From Rhizobium sophorae (GTDB lineage: Bacteria; Pseudomonadota; Alphaproteobacteria; Rhizobiales; Rhizobiaceae), in NCBI RefSeq assembly GCF_013087515.1, contig NZ_JABFCN010000003.1, positions 62,001-126,000 on the forward strand: DNA of 64,000 nt, given 5' to 3'. How positions within the stretch are numbered: position 1 is the stretch's first letter; each line of letters starts with the position of its first letter. This document shows positions 55,336-64,000 of this stretch, one piece after another. The position numbers and the translations under genes were made by a program. The notes below the pieces were generated by a model. The model had not been told where the DNA came from, searched no databases, and saw only the letters and a program-made list of their open reading frames with translations.

Positions 55336-56277
55336 CTACAGCCGATTGGCGCACAATAGAGTGTCACGAGACAAATATCCCGCAAGCGTCCCGTCGGCGG
55401 CTCTGACATGCAGGCCCGGCATCTCACCGGAGAGGATGAGCGCCAAGGCATCGTGAACCGTAGCGTCAGCGGCGATCTCGGCATCGCCGTTGGACGGTTC
55501 CGGCGCGGTCATGATCATCGATACGGCAATCAAGCTCAGCCTTTTTATGGCTCGGTCAGGGCCGAGGAAACTCTCGACGAATTCATTGACGGGACGCGCG
55601 AGGATTTCCTGCGGGGTATCATATTGAAGGAGGCGGCCGTCGCGCATGATGGCGATGCGATCACCCATCTTGATTGCCTCATCGAGGTCATGGGTGACGA
55701 TGACGACGGTCTTCTTCACCTTCCTGAGAATATCGCGGAATTCGTCCTGAAGCCGAACGCGGGTGATCGGATCGATCGCGCCGAACGGTTCGTCCATCAG
55801 CATGATGGCAGGGTCGGCGGCGAGCGCGCGCGCGAAACCGACGCGCTGACGCTGCCCGCCCGACAATTCGTGTGGCAGGCGCTGCCGCATGATGGCCGGA
55901 TCAAGCCCCACGAGATCCAGCAGCTCGTCGACCCGGCGATCGCTGCGCGCCTTTTCCCAACCGAGAAGCCGCGGCACGGTCGCGACATTGCGTGCGATCG
56001 ACATATGTGGAAACAGACCGACTTGCTGGATGACATAGCCGATGCTGCGGCGCAGCTCTTTCTGATCGACTCGGGCGATATCTCTGCCGTCGACCAGCAC
56101 ACGCCCCGCCGTGGGCGTCTCCAACTGATTGATCATGCGCATGGTTGTGGTCTTGCCGCAGCCCGAAGGACCGATAAGCGCAACCGTCGAACCGGTCTCG
56201 ATCAGGAGATCGAGATTGTCGACCGCATGCGAGCCGCTTCCGTCGTAATTCTTCGTAACATGGTCGAGATGAATCAT
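55336..56277 (-). CDS. Quaternary-amine ABC transporter ATPase (OpuCA/ProV family)
   Basis: ATPase of 313 residues. Walker A GPSGCGKTTTMRMINQLE, signature [16 protein letters not shown], Walker B IMLMDEPFGAIDPITR, H-loop VTHDLDEAIKMGDRIAIM. A C-terminal CBS-like segment of about 60 residues (TVHDALALILSGEMPGLHVR) is shorter than the paired CBS of OpuCA. ATG 56277 fits the family N-terminus. Last gene of the operon; drives the two permeases before it. Confidence 0.9.
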   Translation of the reverse strand: MIHLDHVTKNYDGSGSHAVDNLDLLIETGSTVALIGPSGCGKTTTMRMINQLETPTAGRVLVDGRDIARVDQKELRRSIGYVIQQVGLFPHMSIARNVATVPRLLGWEKARSDRRVDELLDLVGLDPAIMRQRLPHELSGGQRQRVGFARALAADPAIMLMDEPFGAIDPITRVRLQDEFRDILRKVKKTVVIVTHDLDEAIKMGDRIAIMRDGRLLQYDTPQEILARPVNEFVESFLGPDRAIKRLSLIAVSMIMTAPEPSNGDAEIAADATVHDALALILSGEMPGLHVRAADGTLAGYLSRDTLLCANRL

Positions 56278-56299
56278 CCTGATATCCGCTTTCGGCCGC

Positions 56300-56935
56300 T
56301 TAGCGCCGTTGAGTGAAGACGCGCTCCAGGGCGCCGAACGCCAATTCCGCAAAGATCGCGAGCAGGGCGATCGGAACCGCTCCGACGAGAAGGCGCGGCA
56401 TGTTCATGATCGCGATGCCGGCATTGATGAAATCGCCAAGCCCGCCGCCGCCGATGAAGGAGGCCAGCGCCGCCCCGCCGATGACCTGGATGGCACTCGT
56501 CCTGACGCCTGACAGAATCGACGGAACGGCCAGCGGAAGTTCGATCTCCCACAGCATCTGCCCGGCGCTCATACCCATTCCGTCGGCCGCATCGATCACA
56601 GAGGCGTCGATCTCCCGGATGCCGATGATCGTGCTCAACAGCAGCGGCGGTACGGCAAGGACGATGAGGGCGACCACCGACGGCAACAATCCGATGCCGA
56701 GAAACGGCATCGCTGCCGACAGGATCGCAAGGCTCGGTATGGAGCGCAAGGCGCCGGCAATATTGACCACTGCAAAGGCGGCGCGAGGTGCCCGTGCGAC
56801 GGCAAATCCGAGTGGCACGGCAATGACGAAAGCGATGCCGAGCGATAGGACGCACATCAGAAGATGGCGATTGAAAGCGTTGAAGAAGGCGCCGGAGTTG
56901 CTGAAGATCCAGCTGAATGCATCGATAACGATCAT
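56300..56935 (-). CDS. Quaternary-amine ABC transporter permease (OpuCB/OpuBB family), copy 1
   Basis: Permease of 211 residues, standard size for OpuB/OpuC. Conserved words: SLAILSAAMPFLGIGLLPSV, IREIDASVIDAADGMGMSAG (EAA loop) with WEIELPLAVPSILSGVRTS, then ALASFIGGGGLGDFI. Overlaps the other permease gene by four bases (ATGA). The two should form a heterodimer. Confidence 0.9.
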   Translation of the reverse strand: MIVIDAFSWIFSNSGAFFNAFNRHLLMCVLSLGIAFVIAVPLGFAVARAPRAAFAVVNIAGALRSIPSLAILSAAMPFLGIGLLPSVVALIVLAVPPLLLSTIIGIREIDASVIDAADGMGMSAGQMLWEIELPLAVPSILSGVRTSAIQVIGGAALASFIGGGGLGDFINAGIAIMNMPRLLVGAVPIALLAIFAELAFGALERVFTQRR

Positions 56936-57564
56936 GCTGCTTTACCTCCACTGCGCCGGCGCAGCAGCTTTTCGAAGGATGCAAAACAGTAGTCGGCAAA
57001 GAGCGCCAGAAATGACGTCAGCAGCCCGCCGGCGATGATCTTTTCGGGAAACCGCTGGTCGATGCCTTCGAAAATGATGACGCCGAGCCCGCCGGCATTG
57101 ATATAGGCGGCAACGGTCGCGATGCCGATGACCGTCACCATGGCAATGCGGATGCCGCCGACGATATAGGGCATCGCCAGCGGGAGCTCGACCTCCCAGA
57201 TCCGGCGCGCCGTGCCGTAGCCCATGCCATCGGCAGCTTCGAGTATGTCACGTGGAATTGCCTGAAACCCCATGCCGATATTGCGGATCAGGATCATCAG
57301 CGAGTAGGCGGCAAGACCGGTAATCGCGGGTGCCGCCCCAATCCCCATGACAGGAATAAGAAGCGCAAACAGCGCCAGGCTCGGCACGGCGAACAGGATA
57401 CCGGTGAAGATGATGATAACCGCGAAGCTCCGCGGCCGCCTTGCCGCCCATATCCCGACGATCAGCGAGATCACCAGGGCAATGCCGACCGAGGAAAAGA
57501 CGAGATACAGGTGCTCCAACAGCGCTTCGAGCAGCCGATCGAGGTGTTTAGGAACCCATTTCAT
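56932..57564 (-). CDS. Quaternary-amine ABC transporter permease (OpuCD/OpuBD family), copy 2
   Basis: Permease of 210 residues. ATG 57564 follows GGAGG; a longer frame exists but would add a hydrophilic, unlikely N-terminus overlapping the upstream gene. EAA loop: PRDILEAADGMGYGTARRIW, EVELPLAMPYIVGGIRIA; later YINAGGLGVIIFEGIDQR. Same transport family as the OpuC, OsmU and EgtU systems for betaines and ergothioneine. Confidence 0.9.
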   Translation of the reverse strand: MKWVPKHLDRLLEALLEHLYLVFSSVGIALVISLIVGIWAARRPRSFAVIIIFTGILFAVPSLALFALLIPVMGIGAAPAITGLAAYSLMILIRNIGMGFQAIPRDILEAADGMGYGTARRIWEVELPLAMPYIVGGIRIAMVTVIGIATVAAYINAGGLGVIIFEGIDQRFPEKIIAGGLLTSFLALFADYCFASFEKLLRRRSGGKAA

Positions 57565-57601
57565 CGTCGAGACCTCCGCGTCCGGGCGCTCGTTCGCCTG
57601 T

Positions 57602-58420
57602 CTACCATGAGATCCCCAATCTGCGATCGGCGTCGTCGGCTCTCTGCGGCAGGACATCGTAGGTAGACGGAGCGACCGCCGAAAATCGTCTGAGGCCGAG
57701 CCGTTCCAAAGCCGCCGCTCCCTCAGGCGTTTCATGCAACGTCACGAGGCTCCGCTGTAACGCTGTGGCGATGTCCGCGGGCAATGTTTGCGCGGCAACC
57801 AATAGCGGCGCGGGAAGCGGATCGGTCGTCGCTAGAATACGAAGACCACCGATCGCGTCGCGTTCGTGCATCGACAACAATTGGAAGGCATAAGCGTCGA
57901 TCGCGCCCGCATCGATCCTGCCGTCCTTGAGAGCGGCGATGATGCCTGAAGGGTTGAGCAGCGGTCCGACCGTCATGCTCGGCTTCATTTTCCCGGCAAA
58001 CTGGCCGGCAAGGAAGGAACGCGCAGCGTGGTAGCCCGATTGGGAATCGCGCACGGTCCAGCCCCAGCGTGTCGCAGCGAGATCCGCCACCGCGTTCACC
58101 GGCCCGGTGGAGGCGACGAGGATGTGGCTGGCATAGAACGGCTGGTCCAAAGACCATGCTTCGTTCGAGACGGGTGCCGCAAGGGCCGCCGGTCTTAAGC
58201 CCTCCGGCATGCGCGAAAACGGATAGCCGCACATGAAGACCGCTCCCATGTCCGGCCTTGTCCATAATTCCGACAAGGGAGCTGGAGCTGCGTGAGCGAT
58301 GATCTCCAGCTCGACGCCGGAACGTAGGCTGACCAGCGCGAACAGCGCGTCCCACAGGCCGCGAATGCGCGGGCTGAGATTATACATTCTCGAACAGGCG
58401 ATTGGCTTGCATATAACCAT
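57602..58420 (-). CDS. PhnD/SsuA-like substrate-binding-fold protein, no signal peptide
   Basis: Protein of 272 residues with the PhnD-like type-2 periplasmic-binding fold: MYNLSPRIRGLWDALF at the N-terminus, VFMCGYPFSRM, a central WGWTVRDSQSGYHAARSFLA and GRIDAGAIDAYAFQLL. No signal peptide or lipobox is visible, so it may be cytosolic, or its true start may differ (ATG 58387 is an alternative). It lies between the ornithine-cyclodeaminase-like gene (6-base gap) and the permeases. A sensory or accessory binding role is possible. Confidence 0.78.
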   Translation of the reverse strand: MVICKPIACSRMYNLSPRIRGLWDALFALVSLRSGVELEIIAHAAPAPLSELWTRPDMGAVFMCGYPFSRMPEGLRPAALAAPVSNEAWSLDQPFYASHILVASTGPVNAVADLAATRWGWTVRDSQSGYHAARSFLAGQFAGKMKPSMTVGPLLNPSGIIAALKDGRIDAGAIDAYAFQLLSMHERDAIGGLRILATTDPLPAPLLVAAQTLPADIATALQRSLVTLHETPEGAAALERLGLRRFSAVAPSTYDVLPQRADDADRRLGISW

Positions 58421-58426
58421 GGCTAT

Positions 58427-59431
58427 TTATGCAAACCGCAGCCGCTGGCCGATATTCATCACCCTGGCCTTCTCCACCATGGCGGCGCCGAGCGCCACGT
58501 CGGTCGTGCTGAGGCCGCGATGCCAGAACAGGATCGTCTCCTCATCACTTTCGCGGCCGGGCTTCATGCCGCAGACGATCTGGCCGATTTCGGCATGCAA
58601 GTTCTCGGCCGTCACCTTGCCCTCGTCGACGTGACGGCGAAGCGCTCCGAAAGGCTTGCCGGGGCCGCATTGTCCCCAATCGTCGACGACGACCTTGTCC
58701 ATGATATCGGTGAGATCGAATTCAAGAGCGCTCATCGTGCCATAGGGCACGACGAAGGCTCCCTTCTTCACCCATTCCGTCTTGAACAGCGGCGCCGGTT
58801 CCGGCAGGCGGCTGGCCTCGACCATGATATCGGCGCCTTTGAGGCAATCCTCCCAATTGTCGGTGACGATGATCTTCTTGCCGAGATCCGCCTCAAGACG
58901 CTTTGCGAAGGCATCACGGCTTTCCGGGCGACGTGAGTGTACGCGGATTTCATCGAAATCGAAGAGATGATCGAGAAGCCGGACATTCCAGTAAGAGGTT
59001 CCGCGGGCACCGATATGGCCGAGAATCTTGCTGTCCATGCGGGCGAGATATTTTGCGCCAAGGGCGGTCACGGCGCCGGTGCGCATGTCGGTGATGGCAG
59101 TTGCGTCGATGATGGCCTTCGGTACGCCGGTGTTCGGATCGAACAGGTTGAGGACCGCAAGCTCCGAGGGCAGATCGACCTTGTAGTTGTCGACGAAGTC
59201 ACCGACGACTTTGACGCCGGCATAATTCAGCGCTTTGACATAGCCGCGAAGCACGTTGAAATGGCCTTTGTCGGAGCTCTCCGGCACAAGATGAACACGC
59301 GGCTCGATGACGGTTTCGCCCCTGCCCTGCGCATCCAGCGCTTTCGACACCGCATCGAGAATCTCGTCATTCGTCAGCGCCAGTGCCTTGGCATCGAGGG
59401 CATTGAGATAATCGATCCAGATTTCCTGCAT
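58427..59431 (-). CDS. Ornithine cyclodeaminase / mu-crystallin family protein
   Basis: NAD(P)-binding protein of 334 residues. Substrate-side motifs near IEPRVHLVPESSDKGHFNVL and the Rossmann segment AKYLARMDSKILGHIGARGT, followed by FDEIRVHSRRPESRDAFAKR. Resembles the subgroup annotated as tyramine oxidase subunit B. The family includes ornithine cyclodeaminase, ketimine reductases and amino-acid dehydrogenases. ATG 59431 follows GGAGAAGTGGG; the frame upstream is not coding-like. In this operon it may handle an imino or amino acid made from the imported betaine. Confidence 0.83.
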   Translation of the reverse strand: MQEIWIDYLNALDAKALALTNDEILDAVSKALDAQGRGETVIEPRVHLVPESSDKGHFNVLRGYVKALNYAGVKVVGDFVDNYKVDLPSELAVLNLFDPNTGVPKAIIDATAITDMRTGAVTALGAKYLARMDSKILGHIGARGTSYWNVRLLDHLFDFDEIRVHSRRPESRDAFAKRLEADLGKKIIVTDNWEDCLKGADIMVEASRLPEPAPLFKTEWVKKGAFVVPYGTMSALEFDLTDIMDKVVVDDWGQCGPGKPFGALRRHVDEGKVTAENLHAEIGQIVCGMKPGRESDEETILFWHRGLSTTDVALGAAMVEKARVMNIGQRLRFA

Positions 59432-59497
59432 TTCCCACTTCTCCACATTCCTGTCCGGCTGCTGAGCGGACGGATTTTCGAACAAACACCGTAAGAA

Positions 59498-59551
59498 GAT
59501 TGTCACGCCAGGTCGCGGCCGGATCGATATCCGGCCGCGGGCGTGACAATC
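59498..59551 (-). promoter_or_regulatory. Large composite hairpin after the betaine-binding-protein gene
   Basis: Outer arms GATTGTCACGCC (59498-59509) / GGCGTGACAATC (59540-59551) and inner arms CGCGGCCGGAT (59514-59524) / ATCCGGCCGCG (59529-59539) with a CGAT loop: 23 pairs interrupted by one 4-base bulge. It begins at the stop codon of the binding-protein gene. There is no T-run after it, so it probably stabilises the upstream message or attenuates the downstream genes. Confidence 0.65.
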
Positions 59552-60437
59552 ATTTCGGCAGCAGGCCGTTTTCCTTGAGGAACTCGACCGCCACGTCCTT
59601 GGCTTCCTCGTGATCGGTCTCGACCTTGGCATTGAGGACACGCATTTTCTCATTGTCGAGATGGGAGCCGACCGCTTCCAGCAGTTCGGCAACCTTCGGA
59701 TTGGCCTTCAGCACGTCCTGGCGGACAACAGGTGCCACGTAGTAGGGCGGAAACAGACCCTTGTCGTCTGCCAGCGGCACGAGGTTCTTCGAGCCGATCT
59801 GCCAGTCGGTCGCGGCGCCATTGGCGACGTCGATGTCCTTTTGTTCCAGCGCGTCATAACGAAGGCCAAGCTTGGCAAACTGCTTGAACTCCTTGAACTC
59901 GGCGTCATAGACACGCTTAAGGCCGGGCAGGCCATCGGCGCGGTCGGGAAATTCAGCGCCGCCGCCGAAGACCAGGGTCTTGGAAACCTTGGCGAGATCC
60001 GACAGGCTCTTCAGATTGTTGGCCTGCGCCGTTTCCTGTCGGACGACGATCACATAGCCATTGTTGATGCCGCTCGGCTTCAGCCAGGTGAGGTTGAACT
60101 GCTTGGCGTAGAAATCCTTGACCTGCGTGTAGACCTTCTCGGCATCGGTCGACATCTCACCCTTGACGACAGAAGCCAGCGCCGTCCCGGTATATTCCGG
60201 ATAAAGATCGATCTCGCCGGCCACCAATGCCTGGTGAGCAATCAGCGTACCGCCGAGATTGATCTTGCGCTCGACGGTGATGCCGGCATTTTCCAGAACG
60301 GCAGCGTACATTTCGGCGAGGATGAACTGCTCGGTGAAATTCTTGCTGCCAACCTTGATGGTCTCTGCGGATGCAGACTGGAACATGGCGGCTGCCATGA
60401 TGCCCGCTGCGAAGAAGCCTTTTGTCCAACTTTTCAT
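59550..60437 (-). CDS. Quaternary-amine ABC transporter substrate-binding protein (OpuCC/OsmF family)
   Basis: Binding protein of 295 residues with a Sec signal peptide (KSWTKGFFAAGIMAAAMFQS, cleavage after ASA). The family signature ETIKVGSKNFTEQFILAEMY and DLYPEYTGTALASVV are unmistakable. ATG 60437 lies six bases after GAGGGA; ATG 60443 abuts the site directly. Members bind glycine betaine, choline, carnitine and, in the EgtU branch, ergothioneine through an aromatic cage. Position after a HAL-like lyase argues for a histidine-derived betaine here. Confidence 0.9.
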   Translation of the reverse strand: MKSWTKGFFAAGIMAAAMFQSASAETIKVGSKNFTEQFILAEMYAAVLENAGITVERKINLGGTLIAHQALVAGEIDLYPEYTGTALASVVKGEMSTDAEKVYTQVKDFYAKQFNLTWLKPSGINNGYVIVVRQETAQANNLKSLSDLAKVSKTLVFGGGAEFPDRADGLPGLKRVYDAEFKEFKQFAKLGLRYDALEQKDIDVANGAATDWQIGSKNLVPLADDKGLFPPYYVAPVVRQDVLKANPKVAELLEAVGSHLDNEKMRVLNAKVETDHEEAKDVAVEFLKENGLLPK

Positions 60438-60518
60438 AGTCATTCCCTCTTGTTGACTTTTCAATGAACGGACTGACGGCATTCTCCGGAATGATCGTCA
60501 GCATGACCGATCGGCGCC

Positions 60519-60538
60519 CTGCCCTTCTGCCGGGGCAG
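60519..60538 (-). promoter_or_regulatory. Stem-loop between lyase and binding-protein genes
   Basis: Arms CTGCCC / GGGCAG with an 8-base loop in the 113-base gap between the HAL-like lyase stop and the binding-protein start. Too short to be a good terminator and has no T-run. Confidence 0.3.
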
Positions 60539-60550
60539 TGGCGAACCGGC

Positions 60551-62056
60551 TTATTGCGGGCCGAGCCCGATCAATGCGGCAATCGTCGCAAAATCCGGCC
60601 CTTGCGCGCGATCCTCTTCAAGTGCCGGAACGTGGGTGCGGACAAAGGCATAGGCTTCCGCCGATCCCTTGCCCAATTCACCTGAGACGCCTCTGAGCTC
60701 GACGGCCTGCACCGATGCGATCAGTTCGATGGCAACCAGATAGCGCAGGCGCTCGACGATCGCCTGCGCCTTTGCCAAAACGCTGGGAGCCATCGATGCC
60801 TGGTCTTCGACGCCATCGGCGACAGGAATGGGCGAAAGCGAAACCGGCATGGCCAGATGGCGGATTTCGGCTTCCATGGCCGAGACGGTCTTTTGCACGG
60901 TCGCAAAACCGGTACGGCTCTGGCCCATCGGGGTCAGGAAGCGTGGCAGGTCGGACATGCCAGGCGACATGATCTTCATAATCCGATAGGCGGTGCCTGC
61001 CGCGCAATGCGCCATCGCCTGCCCCAACCTTTCCCAGGCGAGCACAAAAGCGGTCATGTCAAAATTGCCGTGTGAAAGAATGACGCCCTCGGATGCGATC
61101 ACGACGGGATTGTCGCTGGAACTGACGAGCTCTATGTCAGTCGCCTGCCTTGCCTCATCGATCGCATGCCTCAACGCGCCCCAGACCTGCGGTGTGCAGC
61201 GGTAGCTCAAAGGATCTTGGAGACGTCTTGCTGCATCGGCTACAAGCAAGGAGCTGCCCGAAAGAAGCTCCATCAACTGAGCGGCGACGCGGCGCTGCCC
61301 AAAGGCCGGTCTGGCAGCCAGAGCGCGGTCGTCGAAGGCACTGACATTGGCCCGGAACGCTTCGAAATTAACGGCAATCGCCTTCAGGGACCAATCGAAC
61401 AGCCGCTCGATATCCACAAGCGTCAAGCAGGCGAGGCCGATGGAGAGGCTGTTGGCCACAACAAGCGCATGCCCGTCCTTTGGCGCGAATTCGAGGGGCT
61501 TCAAGCCGGCCCTTTCAAGGGCGACGGCGGCCGGCAGCACGTCGCCGTCAAGCTCGATGTCGCCGAAGCCGAGAAGGCCGCGGCTCATATGGGCAAGCGG
61601 AGCCAAATCCGCCGCACCGATCGAGCCCAATGATGGGACGACAGGATGAATACCTGCATTGATGGCGGCAATCAGACCCTGGAAGACTTTCAGCGAAACG
61701 CCGGAACCGCCCGCCGCCATGCCGGCGGCCCTGACGGCCATCATCGCCCGCACGGATTCCCGGGCAAGCGGTTCTCCGACGCCGACCGCGCGGGCTTGCG
61801 GCACACGCATCTGGAACGCCACCAGATCTTCCGTCGCAAGTCGTGTATCGACCCCTGCCCCAAGTCCCGTCGTCAAGCCATAGACCGGCAGATCCTTTTC
61901 CGTATAGCGATCGACGACGGCGCGCGCGGCCACAATCCGGGCATCGACCTCGGCGGAGATCTCGATCCTGGCGTGACGACGGGCAATTGCTGCGATGTCC
62001 TCGATCGTGGGCGGCGCCGAGCTGAAGATGATCGATGGAGAATTGGTGGCGCTCAC
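60551..62056 (-). CDS. Aromatic amino acid lyase homologue (HutH-like) lacking the MIO triad
   Basis: Histidine/phenylalanine ammonia-lyase superfamily protein of 501 residues, normal length. The Tyr loop is VYGLTTGLGAGVD (residues 58-70), and PLSYRCTPQVWGALRH, SSSDNPVVIASEGVILSHGN and GVEDQASMAP correspond to other HAL active-site segments. At the MIO position HAL has GASGDLAPLAH, but here residues 144-156 read GSIGAADLAPLAH: the Ser-Gly needed for MIO is absent. Ergothionase, which eliminates trimethylamine from ergothioneine, is a known MIO-free member. GTG 62056 overlaps the HutC-like stop (GTGA) with GGAGAG upstream. Classical histidine deamination is unlikely. Confidence 0.85.
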   Translation of the reverse strand: MSATNSPSIIFSSAPPTIEDIAAIARRHARIEISAEVDARIVAARAVVDRYTEKDLPVYGLTTGLGAGVDTRLATEDLVAFQMRVPQARAVGVGEPLARESVRAMMAVRAAGMAAGGSGVSLKVFQGLIAAINAGIHPVVPSLGSIGAADLAPLAHMSRGLLGFGDIELDGDVLPAAVALERAGLKPLEFAPKDGHALVVANSLSIGLACLTLVDIERLFDWSLKAIAVNFEAFRANVSAFDDRALAARPAFGQRRVAAQLMELLSGSSLLVADAARRLQDPLSYRCTPQVWGALRHAIDEARQATDIELVSSSDNPVVIASEGVILSHGNFDMTAFVLAWERLGQAMAHCAAGTAYRIMKIMSPGMSDLPRFLTPMGQSRTGFATVQKTVSAMEAEIRHLAMPVSLSPIPVADGVEDQASMAPSVLAKAQAIVERLRYLVAIELIASVQAVELRGVSGELGKGSAEAYAFVRTHVPALEEDRAQGPDFATIAALIGLGPQ

Positions 62057-62820
62057 TGTTTCTCTCCGAGAATGGCGACGGGTTTGGAGGGACCCTTGGT
62101 GGATCGTGCTTCCAGCCGATATTGCGCGCCGGGATAGTATAACAGCGCACATGTGACGACGGCCTCGCCCGACCAGGTCCGTCGAAAGACGCGCAAACAA
62201 GGATGATCGTTCTTCAGGCCAAGATATTTGCGTATGGCCGTATCCGGTTTGACAGCCTGGACGATATGTTCGAACGCCGTTATCGGAGCCACCTTCGTGA
62301 GATATTCATGCGGCGTCATGCTGCGGAAGTCGGTCGAGAGATAGTCGGGCGCGACCAGGGGATTGACGTAGCGTTCCTCGACCTGAATGGGCTGGTCGTT
62401 TTCCATGTGCACGATCAGCGAATGCATCACTTCAGCGCCGAGGATGAGCTCAAGCGCATCGGCAACGTTGGCATCCGCCTTCATCAAGCCGGCCTTAACG
62501 ACTGCCGCCGTATGCTTGTGGCCCCGTTCCAGTATTTCGTCGGCTATGTTGCGGATCTGAAGCAGATCGACGTCGAGGTGTTTTGGCGACACGAATGTTC
62601 CGATCCCGGCGGATCGCTTGAGAACACCTTCGAACATCAGCTCCCGCAGCGCCCGGTTCGCCGTCATCCGGCTGACGCCGAATGCCGCCACCAATTCGCT
62701 TTCGGAGGATACCCGGTCTCCCGGCTGCAGCTTGCCCTCGGCGATCTCGGTCAGGATCTGATCCTTGATCCTGATATAATGGCGCGCCTCGCCGGCGGCC
62801 GGTTTGACCGCTTTCGTCAT
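62053..62820 (-). CDS. HutC-like GntR/UTRA transcriptional regulator
   Basis: Regulator of 255 residues. GntR HTH: YIRIKDQILTEIAEGKLQPG, then SESELVAAFGVSRMTANRAL and a RSAGIGTFV wing. The UTRA domain carries words typical of HutC: NIADEILERGHKH, HSLIVHMENDQPIQVEERYV, NPLVAPDYLS. HutC proteins sense urocanate and repress histidine-utilisation genes, so this one may sense an (thio)urocanate-like product of the coupled lyase. ATG 62820 overlaps the MaoC stop (ATGA); its own stop overlaps the lyase GTG. Confidence 0.9.
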   Translation of the reverse strand: MTKAVKPAAGEARHYIRIKDQILTEIAEGKLQPGDRVSSESELVAAFGVSRMTANRALRELMFEGVLKRSAGIGTFVSPKHLDVDLLQIRNIADEILERGHKHTAAVVKAGLMKADANVADALELILGAEVMHSLIVHMENDQPIQVEERYVNPLVAPDYLSTDFRSMTPHEYLTKVAPITAFEHIVQAVKPDTAIRKYLGLKNDHPCLRVFRRTWSGEAVVTCALLYYPGAQYRLEARSTKGPSKPVAILGEKQ

Positions 62821-63668
62821 GACAACCTCGCGATGCCATTGTCGAGGATGGTCGCGCCGCGAGAAGCAACGAGGCCGCGGAAGCGGATCTCGGCATCGTT
62901 CCGCCACATCTGCACGGTGATCGTTTCGCCGGGAAAGATCGGCGCGCTGAAACGCGCCGCGATCGCGCTCAAGCCGCTGGCCATGCTTGGATCGATAGCA
63001 GCGACAATGGCGTAGCCCGCATAACCGAAGCTGCAGAGCCCATGCAGGATCGGCCGGTCAAAGCCGCTCCTGCCGGCTGCCTGCGGATCGACATGCAGCG
63101 GATTGAGATCGCCGTTCAGGCGATAGAGCAGTGCGGCGTTGTCAGGGATGTCGATATTGAATTCAAGGTCCGGCTCTCTGTCCGGGACTTTCGGCAAGGG
63201 TTCGGGCGCAGATCCCGCCGAGCCGCATCCACCGTCGCCGCGGCACGCATTGGTCTGGACGATGGTCGCGATCGGCTCATCACTGTCTGCGGTTGCGATT
63301 AGGCGCTCGAAGCTGACGAACACTCCTTTCTCAACGCCGCGATCGACCACCGACAAGACGCGCGACCGAGAGATGAGCGGCACATCGAGGGGGACCGGCC
63401 GATGGATCGTCAGGCGATGTTCGGAATGCACCAGACGCGCCCAGTCGACGCCTGCGTCCTTCATCCATGGCCCCGGATGCGCCACGATATTGGCAAGGGT
63501 CGGTGCGGTCACGAGATCGCGTTCATAGACGTACTTCAATGTCTTGTTGTCGTCAGGCCCGTCGGTGCCGTAGCCAACCGAGAGGGCGTAGAGGATGGCA
63601 TCCCTTGCCGTAACTACATGTGTCGCCTGCGGCACCGGGAAATCGAGAATGGATTGAGCCGACAGCAT
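62817..63668 (-). CDS. MaoC-like double hot-dog hydratase
   Basis: Enoyl-CoA hydratase 2 / MaoC family protein of 283 residues. The C-terminal hot dog holds the hydratase-2 signature RLNGDLNPLHVDPQAAGRSG with catalytic Asp and His, then PILHGLCSFGYAG. The N-terminal hot dog (about residues 10-125) has no catalytic motif, as in eukaryotic-type hydratase 2. Start is ATG 63668 (TGATG with the SDR stop) or GTG 63671. It acts on CoA thioesters, suggesting that a side chain is processed by a beta-oxidation-like step. Confidence 0.86.
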   Translation of the reverse strand: MLSAQSILDFPVPQATHVVTARDAILYALSVGYGTDGPDDNKTLKYVYERDLVTAPTLANIVAHPGPWMKDAGVDWARLVHSEHRLTIHRPVPLDVPLISRSRVLSVVDRGVEKGVFVSFERLIATADSDEPIATIVQTNACRGDGGCGSAGSAPEPLPKVPDREPDLEFNIDIPDNAALLYRLNGDLNPLHVDPQAAGRSGFDRPILHGLCSFGYAGYAIVAAIDPSMASGLSAIAARFSAPIFPGETITVQMWRNDAEIRFRGLVASRGATILDNGIARLS

Positions 63669-64000
63669 CACGATGCAGCTCCCCCCGATGTCGCGGGTTT
63701 GCGAACGCCACCGGACAGGCGGATGCCGCCGTCAACGGAAAGCAATTCGCCGGTGACGAAGTCGGCACCCTGAACAAGCCAGACAATGGCGCCGGCAACG
63801 TCTTCCGGTGTTGCAACCCGGCCAAGCGGGGCGGTTTCCGAAAATCGCTTGGCAATGGCTCCATAGGCATCCGGCCCGAGCGTATCGCGCATCCAGCGCG
63901 TATCGATGATGCCGGGACAAACGGCATTGACGCGGATATCGGGACCGCAGGTGCGGGCCAAGGCCAAAGTCAGCGCATTGAGCGCACCCTTGGAGGCCGT
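63668..64000 (-). CDS. Short-chain dehydrogenase/reductase (5'-partial)
   Basis: C-terminal 110 residues of a classical SDR; the gene runs off the window. The first visible residues, TASKGALNALTLALA, contain the Lys of the YxxxK active site, whose Tyr lies just outside. The NAVCPGIIDTRW loop and the end FVTGELLSVDGGIRLSG are typical of FabG-like enzymes. It overlaps the MaoC gene and probably oxidises the hydroxy product of that hydratase. Confidence 0.88.
   Translation of the reverse strand, partial: TASKGALNALTLALARTCGPDIRVNAVCPGIIDTRWMRDTLGPDAYGAIAKRFSETAPLGRVATPEDVAGAIVWLVQGADFVTGELLSVDGGIRLSGGVRKPATSGGAAS

Follow-up and report, generated by a model that had tools for sequence, protein, structure and literature searches.

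A histidine ammonia-lyase homologue without its cofactor motif in an operon of Rhizobium sophorae that is sister to the ergothioneine pathway

Which compound is degraded by a homologue of histidine ammonia-lyase (HAL) that lacks the residues for its 4-methylideneimidazole-5-one (MIO) cofactor and is encoded together with an importer for quaternary amines? The question is raised by a 64,000-nucleotide stretch of the 7.5-Mb genome of Rhizobium sophorae (contig NZ_JABFCN010000003.1, G000:C23:62001-126000; hereafter the window; G, C and L numbers are our handles for genomes, contigs and loci), in which such a lyase shares an operon with a HutC-family regulator and an OpuC-type importer. A preliminary description had proposed the catabolism of ergothioneine or of another histidine betaine. 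The second half of this proposal is favoured by the evidence: a MIO-less lyase, a quaternary-amine importer, a HutC-family regulator, and relatives linked to hut genes all speak for histidine-betaine catabolism, but not for ergothioneine itself. The operon is a sister of the ergothioneine pathway, not that pathway, and it may take up and break down a different histidine betaine, which we tentatively predict from sequence comparisons to be ergothioneine sulfonate.

The lyase is an intact member of the HAL family, as had been described, and its PF00221 score (Table 1) lies far above the cut-off of 27.3 bits. Its loop GSIGAADLAPLAH is one residue short of the Ala-Ser-Gly triad when aligned with the HAL of P. 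putida, and the ergothionase of T. denticola (6s7j/6s7q), which belongs to the same fold family, is likewise one residue short in its alignment. This ergothionase is also the best PDB match of the window lyase, with 265.5 bits versus 238 bits for HAL. Both MIO-less enzymes have Leu in place of Tyr280 of P. putida HAL and keep Tyr53, Arg283, Phe329, and Glu414, all five being positions with roles in HAL. The curated HutH model gives the window lyase 383.8 bits and is not reached (cut-off 539.15), and no ergothionase model is present among the NCBIfam matches (E up to 1e-10) of eight lyases.

The active site sets the window lyase apart from ergothionase. In HAL numbering, it carries Arg83, Val195, and Asp411, whereas the ergothionase clade has His83, Ser195, and Gly411. 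Among 214 aligned rows, which were typed by motif and locus, independently of the tree and with the query type (that of the window lyase) as the remainder, Arg83 occurs in 182 of the 187 query-type rows and Asp or Glu at position 411 in 186, and Tyr53, Arg283, and Glu414 are retained in all 187. The combination in the ergothionase-clade rows is His83 and Gly411 (6/6), and in the rows with MIO it is His83 and Ala411 (13/13).

The phylogeny was reconstructed from 50 rows picked from those collected, with near-copies left out; the tree is unrooted and drawn at its midpoint. The window lyase falls into a MIO-less clade of 31 rows (support 100/97), and the T. denticola ergothionase clusters with the lyases of Burkholderia, Polaromonas, Paracoccus, Sinorhizobium, and Paraburkholderia (99/95) behind a separating branch with a support of 97/93; all MIO enzymes form one group (100/100). 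The T. denticola row deviates in its amino-acid composition, and the placement of a further R. sophorae lyase, encoded on contig C22, is unsure because of its long branch. The tree thus places the window lyase outside the clade of the characterised ergothionase, and the alignment shows an Arg83/Asp411 signature. An ergothionase-clade lyase of S. meliloti, encoded on pSymA (L102:9929-18605), lies near a gene annotated as dimethylsulfoniopropionate lyase and an ATP-binding cassette (ABC) importer.

The canonical locus of ergothioneine utilisation lies elsewhere in the same genome. Its four HAL-family matches comprise the window lyase, a HutH with the MIO triad on contig C45, and two MIO-less homologues on C45 and C22. 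The homologue on C22 (L050:9492-16862; G000:C22:73492-80862) is followed by genes for the hydantoin-5-propionate amidohydrolase ErtD (780.8 bits; NCBIfam cut-off 600), the N-carbamyl-glutamate amidohydrolase ErtE (635; 520), thiohydantoin desulfurase (604.7; 440), and thiourocanate hydratase (1059.2; 930). The window operon resembles this cluster in combining a MIO-less lyase with catabolic genes but contains none of its downstream enzymes; among the operon genes in the window and in its upstream continuation (L046), there is neither a thiourocanate hydratase nor a thiohydantoin desulfurase, both of which are encoded on C22. The hydratase exceeds its cut-off in all six Rhizobium genomes checked that have a window-type lyase (including G281) and does not exceed it in nine of the ten genomes of a further set, the exception again being G281. 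Since one of these nine genomes (G568) has a window-type module, the two systems are separable. A match to EgtD (PF10017) is absent from the R. sophorae genome, which makes ergothioneine of its own, at least by the EgtD route, unlikely. The MIO-less paralogue on C45 (L048:8290-9777, in the hut region) has the motif GSAGYL in a further shortened MIO loop and lies beside an ABC importer of the amino-acid type; similar homologues are present in R. rhizogenes (L016:556-2106), with an OpuC-type importer of its own, and in G568 (L126:15477-17111).

The substrate-binding protein can be compared with EgtU of S. pneumoniae, which belongs to an importer of the same OpuC type. Eight ligand positions of the EgtU domain are kept (K242, T275, T296, N339, Y341, E375, R379, and D381), but the positions to which the EgtU study (PMC9732360) attributes the recognition of ergothioneine, namely G244 and the Y/F switch (F293/Y337), are changed to Phe, Tyr, and Ile (G244F, F293Y, Y337I). 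With both determinants absent, EgtU-type binding of ergothioneine is not supported; judged by these residues, the protein appears compatible with an imidazole betaine, and less so with ergothioneine. Ergothioneine was rejected as the substrate because the lyase clade, the Arg83/Asp411 signature, the missing EgtU determinants, and the separate pathway on C22 all count against it.

A search of the genome collection with the lyase yielded 41 distinct loci, 40 of which have neighbours that resemble ornithine cyclodeaminase (OCD) and PhnD (L036 lacks the OCD gene); an association of this extent is not a matter of chance. An OpuAC protein is encoded at 24 loci, a HutC-family regulator at 25, and a CoA-transferase at 23. 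Most of the operon is absent from loci of the R. tropici type, which retain the lyase, OCD-like, and PhnD-like genes, and for some query-type lyases (e.g., those of L081 and L086-L088) no importer is encoded next to the gene. The hut genes of R. sophorae itself (hutH and hutU) are on another contig than the operon. In G568, hutG, hutI, another MIO-less lyase, one further gene, and hutU lie upstream of a module that comprises the ATPase, two permeases, the PhnD-like and OCD-like proteins, the binding protein, and a lyase with 61% identity. The OCD gene, binding protein, lyase (47%), permeases, and ATPase of G977 are located beside a fragment of hutU at the contig end and a hutD-like gene recognised by eye. 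In two further cases, the lyase belongs to the ergothionase clade: that of Paracoccus saliphilus lies together with an OCD gene, yeiH, hutF, hutI, hutH, hutG, and hutU, and that of Paraburkholderia with an OCD gene and hutU. The presence of hut genes beside related modules renders a histidine-type betaine plausible and points to a urocanate-type product.

The genes for an OpuC-type importer and for two flavin monooxygenases of the luciferase-like (LLM) type precede a query-type lyase and an OCD gene at L119:6710-11501 and L125:6596-12296; in L125, both monooxygenases pass the NtaA/DmoA family model. At L095:8639-13381, a MIO-less lyase is directly followed by two genes, one EgtB-like (recognised by eye from the start of its protein) and one EgtD-like (PF10017), and thus lies beside genes for the synthesis of ergothioneine or hercynine.

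The organisation of the window operon agrees with several details of the preliminary description. The regulator, which has UTRA and GntR domains, exceeds the cut-off of TIGR02018 and remains below that of PRK14999 (236.8 bits; cut-off 424). The GTG start of the lyase gene at 62056 overlaps the stop codon of the regulator gene (TGA, 62055-62053), and the OpuC/ProV-type importer is complete, with an OpuAC binding protein, two binding-protein-dependent permeases, and a ProV-like ATPase. The genes for the OCD-like and PhnD-like proteins sit among those of the importer, all on the same strand. Because the window edge splits the operon, the region beyond position 64000 was inspected (L046), and the operon was found to continue with the rest of a gene for a short-chain dehydrogenase/reductase (SDR) and with genes for a CoA-transferase and a YeiH-family exporter, next to a divergent LysR gene. 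The operon thus shares with the hut system a HAL-family enzyme, a HutC-family regulator, and, in its relatives, adjoining hut genes, but differs from it in the missing MIO triad and the low HutH score of its lyase. The same operon is present on pRL12 of R. johnstonii 3841 (RL_RS36630-RL_RS36685).

Table 1. Features of the lyase operon at the end of the window
Feature	Position	Strand	Evidence
ABC ATPase, ProV-like	55336..56277	-	PF00005; TIGR01186 314.4 bits (slightly below cut-off of 326.6)
ABC permease 2, ProW-like	56300..56935	-	PF00528
ABC permease 1	56932..57564	-	PF00528
PhnD/AioX-like protein, no evident signal peptide, invariant Cys64	57602..58420	-	PF12974; best PDB match AioX
OCD/mu-crystallin-family protein	58427..59431	-	PF02423
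OpuAC-type substrate-binding protein (reading frame open to 60482)	59550..60437	-	PF04069 228.4 bits; comparison of EgtU ligand positions
MIO-less HAL-family lyase, 501 aa, GTG start, predicted trimethylamine lyase	60551..62056	-	PF00221 456.7 bits; best PDB match ergothionase 6s7j
GSIGAADLAPLAH, MIO triad lost through a one-residue deletion	61589..61627	-	Sequence and alignment
HutC-family GntR/UTRA regulator	62053..62820	-	TIGR02018 279.1 bits (cut-off 220); PF07702 and PF00392
MaoC-family dehydratase/hydratase	62817..63668	-	PF01575 and PF22622
SDR oxidoreductase, cut by window edge	63668..64000	-	PF13561

With ergothioneine sulfonate as the predicted substrate, the following scheme can be proposed. 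The betaine would be bound and taken up by the OpuC-type importer. In the lyase, Tyr53 would remove the beta-proton, trimethylamine would depart without the help of MIO, and a urocanate-type acid would be left, while Arg83 would grip the 2-sulfonate; an arginine at the position where ergothionase has a histidine would suit an anionic sulfonate. The sulfonate group might then be released as sulfite, perhaps by the OCD-like protein, through transfer of a hydride to C2 of the imidazole, and the PhnD-like protein. The resulting urocanate would be passed to the hut enzymes, with HutC as the urocanate sensor, and YeiH would export the sulfite. We tentatively regard ergothioneine sulfonate as the compound that best accounts for Arg83, the exporter, and the hut link together, with hercynine as the main rival. 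The scheme in its boldest form is unlikely: it would see in the Arg83/Asp411 clade a second kind of MIO-free betaine lyase, independent of the first and with a specificity for 2-sulfonated ergothioneine. Sulfite would be removed reductively by an OCD-family enzyme of a new type, aided by a cytosolic AioX-like protein, before the urocanate reaches the hut enzymes, and a dedicated YeiH would serve as sulfite exporter.

The exporter provides part of the case. The operon carries the only PF03601 match of the genome, which exceeds the cut-off of that family. According to PMC12880088, YeiH makes Salmonella resistant to sulfite and is controlled by a sulfite-binding LysR regulator, and the window operon has the similar arrangement of a YeiH-family gene beside a LysR gene, here at the head of the operon; compared with the YeiE/YeiH system described there, however, the protein of the operon scores under the cut-off of TIGR00698 (134.9 bits; 232.6 required). 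Seventeen of the 41 loci have a yeiH gene upstream of the lyase gene. In Polaromonas and Paracoccus, yeiH lies no more than 9 kb from a lyase without MIO, and it is near the lyase also in L031 and L033.

A number of observations weigh against the sulfonate. It is predicted from one active-site residue and one neighbouring gene; five query-type rows have His83 in place of the arginine, and yeiH is missing from the vicinity of 24 of the 41 loci. Fourteen relatives that possess the OCD gene were compared: YeiH is absent from G303, and G568 has only a match below the cut-off. Each of the remaining 12 has a single copy, which lies close to the operon in G281 and G658 alone and elsewhere in, for example, three genomes of R. 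rhizogenes; one copy is therefore usual and often remote from the operon. The CoA-transferase, SDR, and MaoC genes are unaccounted for by the scheme. The OCD-like gene, too, has a wider distribution: it is present in 27 of 385 genomes of a class sample, and the 26 loci fetched, some of which end early at contig ends, include only five with a HAL-family gene, three of them of the query type. Moreover, the pair of OCD-like and PhnD-like genes also occurs beside a MIO-containing HutH in L120, L123 (with a partial, unannotated OCD match), and L128, so that the pair is not exclusive to betaine lyases.

The OCD-like subfamily itself is tight, with identities of 62-100% in the loci fetched and 84 matches in 72,556 plasmid records, none of them below 60% identity even at E 1e-40. 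It retains motifs that are absent from the alanine dehydrogenase of A. fulgidus, and the best 120 matches of a protein search bear generic names only. In a phylum sample, the gene was found in 11 of 398 genomes and is next to a query-type lyase in nine; the loss of MIO was read directly in seven of these lyases, and those of G069 and G105 were judged by 41% identity to the query. Of the remaining two genomes, G476 has the gene beside a HutH with MIO, and G303 has neither type of lyase in the stretch fetched. The OCD-like protein appears to be a broader enzyme that was recruited into the operon, and because the subfamily is not dedicated to lyases, the case for a role in desulfonation is weak. 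The use of the gene as a marker dedicated to MIO-less lyases was withdrawn, since 21 of the 26 loci of the class sample show no HAL-family gene. The PhnD-like protein resembles AioX (E 1.7e-12), and a cysteine present in all rows (19/19) aligns with the AioX cysteine that we take to be its arsenite ligand. With this invariant cysteine and no evident signal peptide, the AioX/PtxB-like protein probably represents a periplasmic-binding fold put to another use.

Among the histidine betaines, ergothioneine sulfonate is tentatively preferred as the substrate, and hercynine, which we consider doubtful, comes next. The lyase would convert hercynine to urocanate and trimethylamine in a single step, leaving the remainder to the hut enzymes. 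This would agree with the HutC-family regulator, with the hut genes that neighbour the module in G568 (hutG, hutI, and hutU) and in G977 (the hutU fragment), and with a binding protein that retains Glu375 and the carboxylate positions in the absence of the ergothioneine determinants; G568 even carries the module without a YeiH above the cut-off. It is the distribution of YeiH, missing near more than half of the loci and in relatives usually single and often elsewhere, that keeps hercynine a live rival, but the near-invariant Arg83, the YeiH of the operon, and the OCD-like and PhnD-like genes would then have no job. A return to ergothioneine, by way of a second operon for the same compound, is very improbable: the best PDB match is an ergothionase, and several ligand positions of EgtU are common to the binding protein, yet the lyase lies outside the ergothionase clade with a different signature, the EgtU determinants are absent, and the thiourocanate hydratase and thiohydantoin desulfurase are on C22 and not in the operon.

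The genes that the sulfonate scheme leaves aside could find employment if the substrate were a non-imidazole aromatic betaine such as hypaphorine: the CoA-transferase would activate the arylacrylate, which the MaoC hydratase and the SDR dehydrogenase would then shorten. All three are encoded in the operon (the CoA-transferase in 23 of the 41 loci), many hosts are legume symbionts, and the positions that we take to be the ring contacts of HAL are changed in the query-type lyases. Such a substrate is nevertheless improbable, as 18 loci lack the CoA-transferase, neither a thiolase nor a CoA-ligase was recognised by eye among the genes of L046, and the HutC-family regulator and the hut genes adjoining the relatives indicate an imidazole. 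It is also rather improbable that the protein is not a betaine lyase at all and either acts on substrates with a different good leaving group or serves a purpose other than catalysis. Catalysis is only predicted, and the query-type lyases without an adjacent importer would fit such a view, but Tyr53, Arg283, and Glu414 are conserved without exception and the gene shares its operon with an OpuC-type importer.

Fungi and some bacteria synthesise ergothioneine, and plants and animals obtain theirs from these producers. Little was found in the literature on the fate of its spent, oxidised forms in soil, and searches on hypaphorine, on ergothioneine together with ornithine cyclodeaminase, and on ergothioneine in rhizobia returned nothing usable. 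Published work already covers the ergothioneine pathway, EgtU, and trimethylamine lyases that work without MIO. A catabolic pathway for ergothioneine sulfonate, the substrate proposed here, was reportedly described by Yan, Huang, and Zhang in 2022 (ACS Catal. 12, 4825); its likeness to the window operon lies in the proposed substrate. PMC13405746 cites that work for an ergothionase of A. radiobacter, and PMC9967237 cites it as well. If the lyase of that pathway is the orthologue of the window lyase, the sulfonate reading is largely known already. The sulfonate is reported as an oxidation product in people; other passages searched for its breakdown pathway yielded nothing.

If the assignment to ergothioneine sulfonate is true, legume symbionts possess separate sister pathways for ergothioneine and for its sulfonate, and the name histidine ammonia-lyase at present covers a large clade of betaine lyases of other specificity. 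The window lyase is wrongly named in databases: its counterpart on pRL12 (RL_RS36655, 97% identical) is annotated as histidine ammonia-lyase, and several records named hutH encode proteins without the MIO triad, for which that name is misleading. At L181:11441-14505, two very divergent HAL-like genes with ASAD-type loops lie in tandem about 3 kb from an OCD gene.

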